From Ruminococcus flavefaciens (GTDB taxonomy: Bacteria > Bacillota > Clostridia > Oscillospirales > Ruminococcaceae): 64,000 bases of DNA. The notes beneath the pieces are model-generated. The model worked only from the letters and a program-made list of their open reading frames with translations. It was not told where the DNA came from and did no database searches. Positions 3,090 through 9,145 of this stretch are shown one piece after another. The translations under genes and the position numbers were made by a program. The stretch spans positions 1 to 64,000 of the forward strand of contig JAMPAU010000005.1 in assembly GCA_023667045.1 (NCBI GenBank), written 5' to 3'. Numbering within the stretch: position 1 is the stretch's first letter; every line of letters begins with the position of its first letter.

Positions 3090-3626
3090 TTATTTCAGCT
3101 TAAAGTTGTTAAGCCATTCAGTCATTGAATCTTCATAGTCTTTTCTGTCACGTTCTCTGCACTGTATAACCATGCTGTAAAAAGCATCTTCGCCCTTAAA
3201 AGCACCTTCCATTTTAAATACGTTTTTAGTATCTTTAAAATAACTTGAGGAGTTTGTCTGAATAGTATAATAATAGCCGTCGTTTATGGGCTTTACGTCG
3301 AGGCTTTCGCCGTTTATTGTAAGGTTGCTCATATAGCTTTTTATGTCTATATTCTTTAAATTCTCGTTGACGGAATAGGGAATTTTTGAGACGCTGAATC
3401 CGGCTTTTGAGTTATAATAATACGCTATCTGCTCCTGTCCGTCAGAAGTATAGTAAAGATTTGAACTTGACTTCATGTTTTCCGGAAGTGTGACAGTAAA
3501 TTCAGCAGTTCCGGTTTCAGACCATTCAGAAGCGTTGTTTATTGATTTGTCCATAATGTAATCATAGCCGAAATAGCCGCCTGTTGCAAGTACGGCAATG
3601 ACGATTAATACTATTATTTTTTTCAT
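3090..3626 (-). CDS. Membrane-anchored extracytoplasmic protein, unknown function
   Basis: 178 residues. A lysine pair and one hydrophobic segment (about residues 4-22) are followed by a polar domain rich in Ser, Asn and Tyr, so the protein is probably N-terminally anchored and faces outward. There is no lipobox cysteine. The upstream in-frame TTG at 3629 is rejected because the AAGGA ribosome binding site fits the ATG at 3626 with a seven-base spacer. It sits between rpsO and pnp, which are usually adjacent, so co-transcription is likely. The C-terminal half (EGAFKGEDAFYSMVIQCRER) resembles small lipoprotein-like domains, but I cannot assign a family. Confidence 0.75.
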   Translation of the reverse strand: MKKIIVLIVIAVLATGGYFGYDYIMDKSINNASEWSETGTAEFTVTLPENMKSSSNLYYTSDGQEQIAYYYNSKAGFSVSKIPYSVNENLKNIDIKSYMSNLTINGESLDVKPINDGYYYTIQTNSSSYFKDTKNVFKMEGAFKGEDAFYSMVIQCRERDRKDYEDSMTEWLNNFKLK

Positions 3627-3660
3627 CAAGAAATCCTTTAATTATTAATTTAAAGACGTA

Positions 3661-4225: not shown

Positions 4226-4894
4226 ATGAGAAATAATTTGGTGTCAGCCTCTATACTGAGTGCTGATATGCTGAACCTTGAAAGAGAAGTAAAGAAACTT
4301 AAGGAATCGGGCATTGATATGCTCCATTTTGATGTTATGGACGGTGTTTTTGTGCCTAATATAACTTTTGGTCTGCCTGTTCTCGAACAGATAAACAGAA
4401 TAAGCGGCAGATACATGGAGCTTGATGTACATCTGATGATTTCCGACCCGCTCAGATATATAAAGGCTTTCGATAAAGCCGGAGCAGATATTATCACTTT
4501 CCACCTTGAAAGCGACAGCGATACGGCAGAGACCTTAGAAGCTATATACGCAACAGAATGCTACGCCGGAATCGCTATAAAGCCGAATACTCCTGCTGAG
4601 GAGGTATTTCCGTACATAGACGAAAGATTAACTATGGTGCTTGTCATGACAGTAGAGCCAGGTTTTGGCGGTCAGGCATTTATGGATATGTCCGAAAAAA
4701 TAAGAAAAATCCGTGAGTATGCCGACAGCATAGGCTGTTACGACCTTGGCATACAGGTTGACGGTGGTATTAACGACAAGACCGCTGAAATCGTAAAAAA
4801 AGCCGGTGCTAATATTCTTGTTTCCGGCAGTTATCTTTTCAAGTCGGAAGATATGAAAAAGTCCGCTGATATGCTTAGGGCGGAAATATGCTGA
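4226..4894 (+). CDS. rpe: Ribulose-phosphate 3-epimerase
   Basis: 222 residues, a complete TIM-barrel epimerase that interconverts D-ribulose 5-phosphate and D-xylulose 5-phosphate in the pentose phosphate pathway. Visible signatures are SASILSADMLNL, FDVMDGVFVPNITFG with the metal and catalytic Asp, DVHLMI, VEPGFGGQ and the phosphate-binding VDGGIN. The start follows a GAAAGAAGTG purine stretch. The 3' end overlaps the RnfD-like gene by seven bases, so the two are translationally coupled even though epimerase and Rnf functions are not normally linked. Confidence 0.96.
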   Translation: MRNNLVSASILSADMLNLEREVKKLKESGIDMLHFDVMDGVFVPNITFGLPVLEQINRISGRYMELDVHLMISDPLRYIKAFDKAGADIITFHLESDSDTAETLEAIYATECYAGIAIKPNTPAEEVFPYIDERLTMVLVMTVEPGFGGQAFMDMSEKIRKIREYADSIGCYDLGIQVDGGINDKTAEIVKKAGANILVSGSYLFKSEDMKKSADMLRAEIC

Positions 4895-5820
4895 AAAAAT
4901 CAAGACCGGAAAAATCTGTACTTCCCGATATAATGCTTACACTGCTTGTCCTCGAACTCATGGCGTATTTCTATTACGGCGTGCGGTCGCTTGTGCTTGC
5001 CGGAGCGTGCGTGGGGAGTTCGCTGATAGCCGAGATAATTTCCGTAAGGCTTATGGGCAGAAGTTTCAGAGTACAGGACTTCAACTGTATTTCCGACGCA
5101 CTTATAATATCGCTCATGATGCCTGCCGTCGCCGACTTTAAGATTGCCGGACTTGCCGGAGTATTTGCGGTAGTGGTAGCTAAGAACGTTTTCGGCGGAC
5201 GTTTCAATATGATTTTTTCACCGCCTGCCGTTGCGTATGTCTTCATGCTGGCTTCATGGAAAAACGACCTTTTGCAGTTTACCGAACCCCACGTTAAGAC
5301 GGGACTTCTTGAAACTCCCGAAAAGCTTGTTGATTCTTTTTCGCACGTCTATAATATTACCGGAAAAGTCAGCAGTACCGACTTTGAAATACTTCTCGGA
5401 AACTTCACAGGGGCTTCCGGAGCAGTCAGCATATTACTGCTTATAGTATCGGCTGTCATACTTATTTTACGCCGTGACATCTCGGCAGGGGCTTTTATCG
5501 GGACGGTTTCCGGTACGGCTGTTTTTGCAGTGATAACTTCAATGTCCGTGAAATATTCCCTTGTCACAAATATGGTATTGTTTTCGGCGGTCTATATAAT
5601 ATCTGACAGGCGTATAGCTCCGGCTAACAGTTTCTATGCATTTTTCTATGGATTCTTTATAGCTATGTTTGCATATATACTTGTTGTCACTACAGCAAAG
5701 GAAAACGCCATAGTCATGGTATCGGTACTTTTCACGCCGGTTGCGGTCGCATTCAGAAACCTTGAACGCAGAATAGAAAAAATAAGCGAGGAGGGCGAGA
5801 GAATTGGACAGCAGGAATAA
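4888..5820 (+). CDS. RnfD/NqrB-like membrane protein
   Basis: 310 residues, strongly hydrophobic, about eight to nine membrane segments. RnfD family features include DALIISLMMPA, AKNVFGGRFNMIFSPPA (family: GGLGxNxFNPA) and LLGNFTGASGAVS (family: GxxGExS). In real RnfD, a Thr in an S/T-G-A-T motif carries covalent FMN. The equivalent position here reads LLETP, keeping a Thr (T143) but not the rest. The start ATG at 4888 lies inside the end of rpe with GGCGG upstream. RnfE-like and RnfA-like genes follow at once, while RnfB, RnfC and RnfG are absent. It could be a remodelled electron carrier, a transporter, or a remnant under slow decay. Confidence 0.8.
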   Translation: MLKKSRPEKSVLPDIMLTLLVLELMAYFYYGVRSLVLAGACVGSSLIAEIISVRLMGRSFRVQDFNCISDALIISLMMPAVADFKIAGLAGVFAVVVAKNVFGGRFNMIFSPPAVAYVFMLASWKNDLLQFTEPHVKTGLLETPEKLVDSFSHVYNITGKVSSTDFEILLGNFTGASGAVSILLLIVSAVILILRRDISAGAFIGTVSGTAVFAVITSMSVKYSLVTNMVLFSAVYIISDRRIAPANSFYAFFYGFFIAMFAYILVVTTAKENAIVMVSVLFTPVAVAFRNLERRIEKISEEGERIGQQE

Positions 5821-6400
5821 CGGCGGTCTTTTCCGTGACAATACTGTGCTTTCGGCATTTATGGTGCTGTCTCCGGTAATAGTATGTACCAACACGCTGA
5901 AAAAATCCCTTGCCTTGATATATGCATTTTCGGTTATTACATTTGTGTCGGTTATTCTGTCATCATTTGTGCCGAAGAAAATCCCGTATGCACTCCGTAT
6001 TATATCGTATGCACTTATATCCTCACTGGTGTACATTCCAGTAAAGATGACCGCAGGTATGCTGTGGCAGGAATCCGTCACGGCGGTCGGGATATATTAT
6101 CCGCTTATCGCTGTGAACTCTCTCATAGTCTTGCAGACAGAGGTGAAATTTTTCCGTCTGAAAAAAACTCAGATGACAGTATCGCTTTTGTCATATATAG
6201 CCGGATTCGATATAGTCATGCTTATAACTGCACTCATACGTGAGGTTATTTCATATGGCACTGTAAACGGCATGATAGCAGAAATTCCATTGATAGTGAG
6301 CGGTTTTGCACAGACTTCCGGCGGTTTTATACTTCTCGGACTGCTGTGCGGAGTTTACCGGAAAATAAGAGGAGGTAAAGAGAATGTTTCTGATAAATGA
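5804..6400 (+). CDS. RnfE/NqrD-like membrane protein lacking both cluster cysteines
   Basis: 198 residues, about six membrane segments. It aligns with RnfE along its length: FRDNTVLSAFMVLSP matches the family WKNNxxLVQLLGLCP, and GIYYPLIAVNSLIV matches GIxIPLIVTNCxIxGRAEAF. In both places the cysteine that binds the intramembrane 2Fe-2S cluster is serine. The start is a TTG at 5804 after GGAGGG, overlapping the previous gene by 17 bases. Its own end overlaps the RnfA-like gene by 17 bases. Tight coupling suggests the three proteins are made in fixed ratio and form one complex. Redox chemistry of the ordinary Rnf type is unlikely. Confidence 0.78.
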   Translation: MDSRNNGGLFRDNTVLSAFMVLSPVIVCTNTLKKSLALIYAFSVITFVSVILSSFVPKKIPYALRIISYALISSLVYIPVKMTAGMLWQESVTAVGIYYPLIAVNSLIVLQTEVKFFRLKKTQMTVSLLSYIAGFDIVMLITALIREVISYGTVNGMIAEIPLIVSGFAQTSGGFILLGLLCGVYRKIRGGKENVSDK

Positions 6401-6938
6401 AATCATGGCATTTCTTGCCTCTAATCTGATACTTACACAGGCACTCGGAATAAGCACGCTCTTTATAGCAGGTGACAGCCGTAAAAAGCTAATCTGCACA
6501 TCGCTTTTCATTACGCTTTTCACTTCGGCTGGCTCTGTGATGACGTATTGTGCAGACAGTTTTCTGCCCGAAAAGTTTTCAGACATGAGACTTTTATTTT
6601 ATGTGCTTGCGGTGGGAGTGTTGTATATCGGTTCGCTTAAAATACTCAGCCTTGCCGGAAAAGAAAGATTTTCCGAATACAAGAAATATATTCACATATC
6701 GGCTTTCAACTGTGCGGTAATGGGAACTCTCCTCGCCACAGGTGAAAAAGCCGATACACTCGGCGAATATCTTTTATCGGGGGTTACTTCCGGACTGGGT
6801 TTTGTCACTGCCTCGCTTATACTTACGGCGGTTTACGGCAGACTTAATTCAGCGAAAGTCCCCGAATCTTTCAGAGGATTTCCGGCAATGCTCATATATC
6901 TGGGCATAATATCAATGGCAGTTTACACACTTAAATAG
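6384..6938 (+). CDS. RnfA/NqrE-like membrane protein with one of two cluster cysteines
   Basis: 184 residues, about six membrane segments. Family landmarks are SNLILTQALGIST (family: NNxVLxxFLGLCPF), HISAFNCAVMG (family: TTNCAVLG) and VPESFRGFPAMLIYLGI (family: VPxxFRGxxIALITAG). The first cluster cysteine is replaced by serine (LGIS), while the second (NCAV) remains. AGGAGGT precedes the ATG. With the RnfE-like neighbour, only one of the four 2Fe-2S ligands of the RnfA/RnfE pair survives. The gene ends 28 bases before a secreted or anchored protein that may belong to the same operon. Confidence 0.78.
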   Translation: MFLINEIMAFLASNLILTQALGISTLFIAGDSRKKLICTSLFITLFTSAGSVMTYCADSFLPEKFSDMRLLFYVLAVGVLYIGSLKILSLAGKERFSEYKKYIHISAFNCAVMGTLLATGEKADTLGEYLLSGVTSGLGFVTASLILTAVYGRLNSAKVPESFRGFPAMLIYLGIISMAVYTLK

Positions 6939-6966: not shown

Positions 6967-8142
6967 ATGAAAATCAAGAACAAGGGAAGGAAAATATACA
7001 AGACAAAAGAAAAAAACTATTACGGCAAAAGTCCGGCAGGGAAGTTTTTTTCTGCACTTCTTACTGTCGTGCTGATAGGTGGTATAGGTTTTATCGGCTA
7101 CAGCGTGGCAGGACCTATGATTAACTATTCAAGGAAACAAGGCGATGAAGACCCCTCTGAATCTGAATCACAGACAGAAGAATCCATTTCAGAAGAAGCT
7201 ACAGCAGAAAACGATGCGTCGCCGGTTATGGAAACTCAGGTTGATACGTATAGGGCGGTTCAGCTCAATGAATATGAAGTGATGAACGCAGAGGCGATAA
7301 AAACCGCTATCGGCAGAATACCGCAGGAGCAGGGCATTGAATACATTGAAGTACCGCTGAAACTCGCTGACGGTCGTCTCATGTATGCCACTGAATATGA
7401 AAATTTTTCGGAGCTGGACTGTGCAGAACTTACCCTCAAAGAAATTACACGCACTATCAAAAAAGAGGGCTATATTCCAACAGCGTATATAAGCGTACTG
7501 GCGGACGGAGTTATTCCGGAATTTTACCCTCAGTACAGCTACATGAATCCGGAAACTGTCTCGGCATGGCGTGACGCTGATTCTGGAACTTGGGGTTCTC
7601 CTTTTTCGGAAAACTACAACAACTACATTAATTTCATAGCTGATGAGATTTCCTCAGCAGGCTTTGAAAAAATAGTATGTGCGGATATAAGTTTTCCGGA
7701 TTTCAGCGACAGAGACCTTACGCTCCTTAATGACAGCCGTCTTGAAAGTTCCGGCAGATATACCGCCCTTACCGATACGGCAGACAGTCTTTACGATACT
7801 ATAACGGCAAACGGTTCTGATATGTTCATTGAGGTGAGTGCCTCAAACGTACTCAGCGGAAAGGTCGAAATACTAAAGCCTCTTTTCCTTAAAGCTGATA
7901 CTGTCGTGCTTGACATAGACCTTGACGACATAAGCAAGGGCGTAAACACCGGCAGTACTGTGTATGAGTTCAGCGGTACTGTCTCAGAAAACATAATCAA
8001 AATGCTTGACCTTGTAAAAGAAACACTTTCGGACTTTAATGTAGTAGTGCGTATATCGGCTGTTTCGCATAATATTCCCGATATGCTCAGAGCTAAGGAC
8101 GATATAGCCGAAATGGGTTATAAATCTTTTATACTTGGATAA
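6967..8142 (+). CDS. Membrane-anchored DUF4015-type putative glycoside hydrolase-like protein
   Basis: 391 residues. A basic N-terminus and one membrane segment (about residues 26-48) are followed by a Ser/Glu-rich linker (about 60-85) and a TIM-barrel-like domain. The segments WRDADSGTWGSPFSENY and DISFPDFSDRD, and the C-terminal AEMGYKSFILG, resemble the DUF4015 family (family pattern: W.dp....WvnPy...v..Yn...a.e....GFdeiq.DyiRFP). Activity is unproven and the usual acidic residues are not obvious. It probably faces the cell exterior. It is transcribed in line with the Rnf-like genes, 28 bases downstream, with AAGGAAG upstream of the ATG. Confidence 0.7.
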   Translation: MKIKNKGRKIYKTKEKNYYGKSPAGKFFSALLTVVLIGGIGFIGYSVAGPMINYSRKQGDEDPSESESQTEESISEEATAENDASPVMETQVDTYRAVQLNEYEVMNAEAIKTAIGRIPQEQGIEYIEVPLKLADGRLMYATEYENFSELDCAELTLKEITRTIKKEGYIPTAYISVLADGVIPEFYPQYSYMNPETVSAWRDADSGTWGSPFSENYNNYINFIADEISSAGFEKIVCADISFPDFSDRDLTLLNDSRLESSGRYTALTDTADSLYDTITANGSDMFIEVSASNVLSGKVEILKPLFLKADTVVLDIDLDDISKGVNTGSTVYEFSGTVSENIIKMLDLVKETLSDFNVVVRISAVSHNIPDMLRAKDDIAEMGYKSFILG

Positions 8143-8185
8143 AAAAATAAAAATCCGGAGTTTTTCCGGAAGAACGGAGAATAAA

Positions 8186-9145
8186 ATGTCTGAAAATTTT
8201 AAAGTGTCACTTCAGAAAGTGATAGACGAATTTAAGCTTGAAACAATCTATATCCACAAGGACGCTAATGAAGTCATGATTGACGAAAACGACGTAAACC
8301 GTCCGGGCTTACAGCTTATGGGATTCTATGAATACTTCAATCCCGAAAGAATACAGATTATCGGTAAAATGGAGTTTGCGTACCTCTCCACTATCGACGA
8401 AAAAACAAGGCGTGAAAGATTGCAGTTACTTTTCGCACAGAGGATTCCCGCACTCATCATAACAAGAGAACTGCCATACTTTGCGGAAATGCTTGAACTC
8501 GCAAAGGAATATGAAGTACCTCTGCTGAGGAGCAAGGAAAGCACCTCTAACTTTATGTCGGGACTTATTGCTTTCCTCAACCTCAACCTTGCACCGAGAA
8601 TAACCCGTCACGGCGTACTCATTGAAATTTACGGCGAGGGTGTTTTCATCACAGGTGAAAGCGGTGTAGGCAAGAGCGAAACTGCTATAGAGCTTGTAAA
8701 ACGTGGACACAGGCTTGTTGCAGACGACGCTGTTGAAATACGTAAAGTCTCAAATATCAGCCTTGTCGGAAGTTCGCCCGACAATATCCGTCACTTCCTT
8801 GAACTAAGAGGTATAGGCATTATAAACGCACGCCGTCTTTTCGGTATTGGTGCGGTAAAGATGACCGAAAAACTCGACCTTGTTGTAGAGCTGGAACAGT
8901 GGAACTCCGAAAAGCTGTATGACAGAATGGGTGTTGATACTGAATACGTTTCACTTTTGGGAGTGAAAGTTCCTGCACTGACTATTCCGGTAAAGCCGGG
9001 TCGTAATCTCGCCGTTATCCTCGAAGTTGCCGCCATGAACAACAGGCAGAAGAAAATGGGCTACAATGCCGCTACTGAACTTCTGCATAAACTCGGCATG
9101 GAGTCTGACGCTAAGGAAGTTGTCCGTGACTATGAAGCCTTTTAA
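8186..9145 (+). CDS. hprK: HPr kinase/phosphorylase
   Basis: 319 residues. It phosphorylates and dephosphorylates Ser46 of HPr and so controls carbon catabolite repression in Firmicutes. The P-loop GESGVGKS is at residues 157-164, the conserved His at 142 (RHGVLIEIYGEG), the Asp pair at 180-181, and the family signature at ELRGIGIINARRLFG. An upstream in-frame start at 8135 exists, but it overlaps the preceding gene. The ATG at 8186 has a well-spaced GGAGA and gives the normal length. It opens a run of cell-envelope and regulatory genes (murB, rapZ, whiA). Confidence 0.96.
   Translation: MSENFKVSLQKVIDEFKLETIYIHKDANEVMIDENDVNRPGLQLMGFYEYFNPERIQIIGKMEFAYLSTIDEKTRRERLQLLFAQRIPALIITRELPYFAEMLELAKEYEVPLLRSKESTSNFMSGLIAFLNLNLAPRITRHGVLIEIYGEGVFITGESGVGKSETAIELVKRGHRLVADDAVEIRKVSNISLVGSSPDNIRHFLELRGIGIINARRLFGIGAVKMTEKLDLVVELEQWNSEKLYDRMGVDTEYVSLLGVKVPALTIPVKPGRNLAVILEVAAMNNRQKKMGYNAATELLHKLGMESDAKEVVRDYEAF

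Follow-up and report, generated by a model that had tools for sequence, protein, structure and literature searches.

Identification of an Rnf-like gene trio

The 64,000-nucleotide stretch of Ruminococcus flavefaciens contig JAMPAU010000005.1 analyzed here (hereafter the window) contains three overlapping genes on the + strand, whose products are related to the membrane subunits RnfD, RnfE and RnfA of the Rnf complex and are termed D, E and A below. D (4888..5820, 310 amino acids (aa)) recovered PF03116 with 122 bits, while E (5804..6400, 198 aa, with a TTG start as listed) and A (6384..6938, 184 aa) recovered PF02508 with 79 and 69 bits, respectively. All three passed the Pfam cut-offs but fell short of the subfamily and equivalog cut-offs of NCBIfam; the top-ranked NCBIfam models, each matched far below its cut-off, were rnfD for D, RsxE followed by rnfE for E, and rnfA for A. 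This ranking and pairwise alignments place the three proteins closer to Rnf than to Nqr. The initial annotation of the stretch had recognized RnfD-, RnfE- and RnfA-like proteins in these frames, and the frames are indeed present and open and align with the respective Pfam and NCBIfam models. A better fit to some other protein family was rejected by the Pfam, NCBIfam and fold matches, and the profile E-values together with the fold match exclude a chance resemblance to Rnf. A reading of the open reading frames (ORFs) of the locus also bears out the claim that the trio stands without genes for RnfB, RnfC and RnfG. Genes for NqrA, NqrC and NqrF were likewise not seen at the locus, the genome-wide searches not extending to NqrA and NqrF.

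The trio is embedded in a run of + strand genes. The upstream neighbor (4226..4894), which we take to be rpe, overlaps D by 7 bases. Downstream lies a gene (6967..8142) for a 391-aa DUF4015 protein, here termed X, which matches PF13200 with 43.8 bits against a gathering cut-off of 27; it combines a basic N-terminal tail, one predicted transmembrane (TM) helix (about residues 23-42) and a TIM-barrel domain. This domain resembles the glycan-acting domains of Cwp19 and PgaB, to which it is 10-13% identical; X differs from these C-terminal domains in belonging to PF13200 and in its predicted TM helix. The next gene (8135..9145), presumably hprK, is the first of a run hprK-murB-rapZ-whiA-dnaE that is conserved in the window's genus.

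Cofactor and ion-path residues

In the A. woodii complex, RnfA contributes C25 and C113, and RnfE C25 and C108, as ligands of the [2Fe-2S] cluster (PMC11889175). The aligned positions in the window are S23 and S106 in E and S24 and C110 in A, i.e. three of the four cysteines are replaced by serine. Residue counts were made over the window and 80 named loci, two of which are incomplete by virtue of ending at a contig edge (L140 lacks A, L145 lacks both E and A). S23 of E is found in 79/80 (the single gap falls in the short E of locus L125) and S106 in 80/80, while both S24 and C110 of A are found in 79/79. The loss of three of the four cluster cysteines noted in the initial annotation is therefore real, with the window and 78-79 relatives keeping one of four; the possibility that relatives would keep them, which would have pointed to a local error, is contradicted by a pattern that is fixed in 79-80 loci.

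The stretch LLETP of D, earlier taken for an altered RnfD flavin motif, varies within the genus and is not supported in that role, even though pairwise alignment sets its T144 opposite the flavinylated Thr of RnfD; the conserved motif lies nearby in the form of S150-x-S152, with S150 kept in 81/81 and S152 in 80/81 (Thr in the remaining one). A serine, either S150 or S152, thus lies at or near the position of the flavinylated Thr, the alignments differing in a register that is uncertain by two residues. The Asp preceding the flavinylation site is not kept. The equivalents of the riboflavin-binding D249 of RnfD (D240 in the window) and of K111 are kept in 81/81, while N123, the ribityl-contacting Asn, is Ser in 80/81 (S111 in the window).

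Positions of the ion path were mapped by pairwise alignment to RnfE and RnfA. On the E side, the ion-pair residues are kept in the window as R65 and E113, and across the loci R67 is Arg or Lys in 80/80, E115 is kept in 75/80 and N107 in 80/80; the RE pair stands in 79, with a gap in one row. N112, on the side of A, is retained in 79/79.

Conservation and selection

The Ser/Ser combination in E and the Ser/Cys combination in A are fixed in the 79-80 loci, nearly all of which come from Ruminococcus. The median ratio of nonsynonymous to synonymous substitution rates (dN/dS), determined for pairs that are 80-99.5% identical with dS of 0.05-1.5, is 0.074 for D (44 pairs), 0.085 for E (62 pairs) and 0.087 for A (65 pairs), with maxima of 0.20-0.22. 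The pair formed by the window and its closest named relative, L066, was left out, its dS being saturated (1.3-1.9). Columns with at least 97% identity number 62/310 in D, 40/198 in E and 46/184 in A (79-81 rows). A single locus of 80, L125, has an N-terminally short E (169 aa); it lies on the same contig as L033. Given the conserved substitutions and the dN/dS values, a local error or a pseudogene was dismissed for the window and almost every relative. The record of L097, titled Alistipes sp., carries a Ruminococcus-type locus and is probably mislabelled or a mixed bin of a metagenome-assembled genome. The genome of L056 (G019:C147), which belongs to the window's genus, has a second, far more divergent rpe-D-E-A-X copy in addition to the usual copy and a canonical Rnf.

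A graded series of loci across the order

PF13200 was matched in 141 of the 295 genomes searched in the order, and 60 of the matched places were fetched and read together with 37 stretches fetched earlier, giving 97 in all. The gene content of these stretches is graded, from C-D-G-E-A-B-X through C-D-E-A-X and D-E-A-X to X without Rnf genes, and X emerges as a frequent downstream neighbor of Rnf clusters. Full clusters ending in X account for 18 rows, only two of which adjoin rpe (L213, L221), and C-D-E-A-X for 8 rows, of which 6 adjoin rpe. D-E-A-X is seen in 42 rows including the window, all adjoining rpe and 26 of them from the window's genus. X stands without adjoining Rnf genes in 21 rows, twice directly after rpe (L205, L238); two of these rows are uninformative, L054 being cut beside A and L217 having only ~0.9 kb of upstream sequence.

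The cysteines follow the gene content, in that their loss co-occurs with the absence of G and B. All four are present in 16/18 full clusters with X, in the one cut full cluster and in 0/1 full cluster without X (17/20 together), whereas in each of the 52 reduced rows at most one remains; these counts are by row, with L004/L198 and L052/L151 each representing one locus. Canonical rows, of which ~3.5 kb each was read, have four cysteines in 30/30, but they were chosen as the best PF02508 matches and are therefore biased toward kept cysteines, so that the count rests on the 20 clusters found through X or read whole. Among the full clusters, L223 (G115:C168) and L228 (G128:C49) are complete C-D-G-E-A-B-X arrays with Cys/Gly and Thr/Thr at the A/E cluster sites and an RnfC loop reading GGSARPL. 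L051 (G053:C9), the second Rnf cluster of its genome, encodes a 623-aa RnfC with a hydrophobic N-terminal extension and has lost two of the four cysteines.

RnfC itself appears to have been altered ahead of its loss. Its Gly-rich loop (GxGG), which we take to bind flavin mononucleotide (FMN)/NADH on the basis of the Nuo51 fold that Pfam reports in such proteins, is present in 19/19 full rows versus 0/10 reduced rows, while both 4Fe-4S motifs are kept in 10/10 reduced rows. A strict pattern for the second RnfC motif gave the same split (19/19 versus 0/10); when aligned, this motif proves eroded but not wiped out in the reduced rows (e.g. NAIEDEPY), and L050, whose contig is cut after E, still carries ECEPY, so that the argument rests on the Gly-rich loop instead.

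If rooted among the full clusters, a joint tree of D, E and A (68 rows) sets the C-D-E-A loci between the full clusters and D-E-A. Under this rooting, the D-E-A state was reached at least twice, once in the main group that includes the window's family and once in L220/L224, which stand beside L048 (98%). The deep order of the tree should be read as tentative: the root is placed at the midpoint, the branches are long and the main D-E-A group has only 52% support.

In X, a TM-exit pattern G[YFWL]x3-5P is found in 0/18 full clusters with X, 0/1 partial cluster, 6/8 C-D-E-A-X, 38/42 D-E-A-X and 4/21 X-only rows. Its use as a sign of contact between X and D-E-A was dropped, given that the pattern is post hoc, that the X sequences share ancestry and that the tail and TM helix are nearly unchanged in the absence of D-E-A. 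A core of X lost only in reduced clusters was likewise rejected, most core columns being common to both kinds of cluster. Further reduced arrangements were seen in L150 (G051:C16), with C-D-B, and in L149 (G054:C18), with only C and D; A/E were found near neither of them. In other genera (L048, L183-L186, L190, L192, L200, L220, L224 and L232, among others) an opposite-strand gene of ~180-216 aa, by eye presumably MecA-like, lies between rpe and C or D.

Canonical Rnf and loss of the trio in the window's clade

A canonical-grade A/E match (E <= 1e-40) is present in 48/50 carrier genomes tested (of 80), with a single match in two, and in 20/20 other genomes of the same family with a divergent pair (locus read in 15). 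Canonical Rnf is likewise present in 20/24 genomes examined at the order level; being this common, its co-occurrence with the trio by itself says little.

The genome of the window (G000; 3.64 Mb, 112 contigs, 99.99% complete) differs in this respect. Genome-wide, it contains only the window's two PF02508 matches and one RnfD match, with no canonical A/E pair. No RnfC over the cut-off was found in it (five profile matches, all below), its only FMN_bind match is a 468-aa frame beside ApbE, and RnfB was not searched genome-wide. An assembly gap is an unlikely explanation for the absence of a canonical Rnf here, but it may account for it in the genome of L066, in G025 (98% complete) and in G026 (90%). 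The ApbE gene lies in L148 (G000:C24:1064000-1081000), next to the gene for an FMN_bind membrane protein of 466-468 aa and to other small genes, with a run of Ns further on, possibly representing an extracytosolic flavin system.

In two close relatives, G025 and G026, rpe is followed directly by X, in the order rpe-X-hprK-murB-rapZ, and neither genome has a PF02508 or RnfD match anywhere; D, E and A are hence lost as a unit. The locus tree has the topology ((G026, window), (G025, L066)), with 100% both at the node uniting all four and at the G025/L066 node, of which two separate deletions of D-E-A are the simplest reading. Searches of all four genomes of this clade found no canonical A/E match. 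Among same-genus genomes, D-E-A is absent in 0/23 with canonical Rnf versus 2/5 without (Fisher p 0.026); the test is uncorrected for shared ancestry, both losses fall in one clade, and of the five genomes without canonical Rnf G003 is 74% and G021 64% complete. The comparison comprises the 28 informative genomes of 36, with G015 counted as having canonical Rnf on RnfC and RnfD matches only; the other 8, in which the locus is missing or cut, were left out (in G001, G002, G008, G013 and G022 the adjoining hprK was also not found, and G005, G016 and G020 are cut at X). The losses in this Rnf-less clade hint at a trio whose usefulness is mostly confined to cells with Rnf. The initial view of the trio as maintained rather than decaying is supported by near-invariant substitutions in 79-80 loci and by purifying selection, with the qualification that the trio is absent from two of the four genomes of the clade and that E is short in 1/80 loci. 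No scattered pseudogenes were seen, but the trio is cleanly absent from two sister genomes.

Functional implications

These observations suggest that D-E-A is probably a maintained, redox-silenced Rnf core, or pseudo-Rnf. As described in PMC11889175 and PMC12174285, electron transfer through the A/E pair depends on the cluster, with RnfB donating and RnfG accepting the electrons. D-E-A cannot run this relay because its A/E [2Fe-2S] site retains one of four cysteines, because neither RnfG nor RnfB is encoded in the cluster, and because the RnfC of the intermediate clusters was deprived of its Gly-rich loop ahead of the loss of C. The proposal that the trio is an Rnf-derived membrane complex that gave up its iron-sulfur path is supported by the cysteine pattern, the intermediates across the order and the tree. 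D-E-A would have arisen from a full C-D-G-E-A-B-X cluster that lost genes step by step, with three integral-membrane subunits retained as one unit beside X; D, E and A probably still assemble, and D may still hold riboflavin.

Several observations weigh against this interpretation or parts of it. The full clusters L223, L228 (both CG/TT) and L051 (CG/GC) lost cluster cysteines while keeping all subunits, and the loss of cysteines therefore needs no loss of G and B. The remaining cysteine may, together with serine, bind some metal. Among the Na+-path residues contributed by A, E88 is Leu in 79/79 and Q85, T110 and T111 are all replaced, which weakens a reading of the pair as an ion path. The window genome keeps D-E-A though no canonical Rnf was found there, and a canonical A/E pair was also not found in G041, G065 and G087 (60% complete), each with C-D-E-A-X. 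The trio is dispensable in G025 and G026, and the tail and TM helix of X are nearly unchanged in these two genomes, which speaks against a needed contact between X and D-E-A.

Compared to the Rnf complexes with known structures (A. woodii, C. tetanomorphum and A. vinelandii), the locus differs in lacking B, C and G, in the loss of three of the four [2Fe-2S] cysteines and in the replacement of the ribityl Asn and, apparently, of the flavinylated Thr. The membrane core of Na+-NQR (NqrB/D/E) is homologous to D-E-A, but its cofactors are described as conserved (PMC12174285). NqrA has set a precedent as a subunit whose redox cofactors were lost (PMC11889175). The flavinylated Nqr/Rnf-like systems are, as described in PMC8238504 and PMC10979944, also reduced Rnf relatives with a non-conserved RnfD-type flavinylation site; these have two subunits, namely an RnfD-type protein fused to a NAD-binding domain and an RnfG-type protein. 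The window D has no such domain (it matches PF03116 only, without the PF00175 fusion in the Pfam search) and A/E are kept. The urea, Rh and ammonium transporters, which are structural cousins of RnfD, match D much more weakly than RnfD does, and no sequence evidence for a urea or ammonium pore was found in D. No description of a D-E-A-only Rnf locus or of an Rnf-DUF4015 link was recognized among the open-licence papers searched, where a phrase search is dominated by papers on RNF ubiquitin ligases.

As to what a redox-silenced core might do, the leading, if tentative, candidate is redox-free work of an ion- or solute-coupled kind through A/E that would spend the gradient of the cell's normal Rnf and might join X in tasks on the envelope or on glycans. 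The set of kept residues is mixed; it allows an ion-coupled role without pointing to one strongly. The more specific version, in which an A/E pair devoid of the cluster serves as an ion-driven transporter or conformational motor that spends the canonical Rnf gradient and acts outward on the envelope with X, appears somewhat doubtful. The site of ion passage is itself in dispute for Rnf and Nqr, with RnfD/NqrB and the A/E pair as contenders, and so is the manner of its dependence on the buried cluster (PMC11889175, PMC12174285).

A comparably tentative alternative is that the trio has neither transport nor redox activity and acts as a scaffold or regulator, either positioning X or modulating the canonical Rnf, e.g. 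by pairing with its subunits or by competing for RnfG, RnfC or RnfB. The canonical-grade matches in nearly all carrier genomes and the confinement of the apparent losses to genomes without canonical Rnf are consistent with such a role, subject to the single clade and incomplete genomes behind the latter; X also adjoins the trio in the window, as it does by construction in every one of the 42 D-E-A-X rows. Nevertheless, canonical Rnf is common anyway, the genomes of the window and L066 hold the trio without a canonical A/E match, and the conserved columns of X persist almost entirely in genomes lacking the trio, so that X seems not to depend on it.

It is rather unlikely that D alone, with riboflavin and possibly FMN on a serine, still serves as a transmembrane conduit that takes electrons from some donor other than RnfC and hands them to an acceptor on the outside. 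The invariant D249 and K111 equivalents, the serine at or near the flavinylation site, the presence of ApbE in the window genome, the 4Fe-4S motifs kept by RnfC in the C-D-E-A rows and the outward RnfD-type wire described for Nqr/Rnf-like systems (PMC8238504, PMC10979944) are compatible with such a flavin wire. However, C, G and B are not at the locus, the ribityl Asn and the Asp before the flavinylation site are lost, ApbE adjoins its own FMN_bind protein, and the retention of E and A would be left unexplained.

Least probable is slow decay, with the trio as a dispensable leftover held for now by an operon shared with needed genes: the two apparent losses, the stepwise erosion across the order and the one short E would fit, but dN/dS medians of 0.07-0.09 over 44-65 pairs with maxima near 0.2 and the many near-invariant columns do not, and the clean D-E-A deletions with X kept show that operon position does not force retention.

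With a redox-silenced core as the preferred interpretation, the gut Ruminococcus would represent a natural experiment in which the cluster and the electron donor and acceptor subunits were given up while the membrane core was kept under selection. Selection seems to preserve a former electron-transfer machine for another job, and the D-E-A core would offer a direct way to ask what D, E and A can do without electrons. The locus series further constitutes an unusually complete record of a respiratory complex being dismantled.

Elsewhere in the window, a small lipoprotein-like ORF of no firm family (3090-3629, - strand) lies between rpsO and pnp, and an equivalent is found in the same place in G026.

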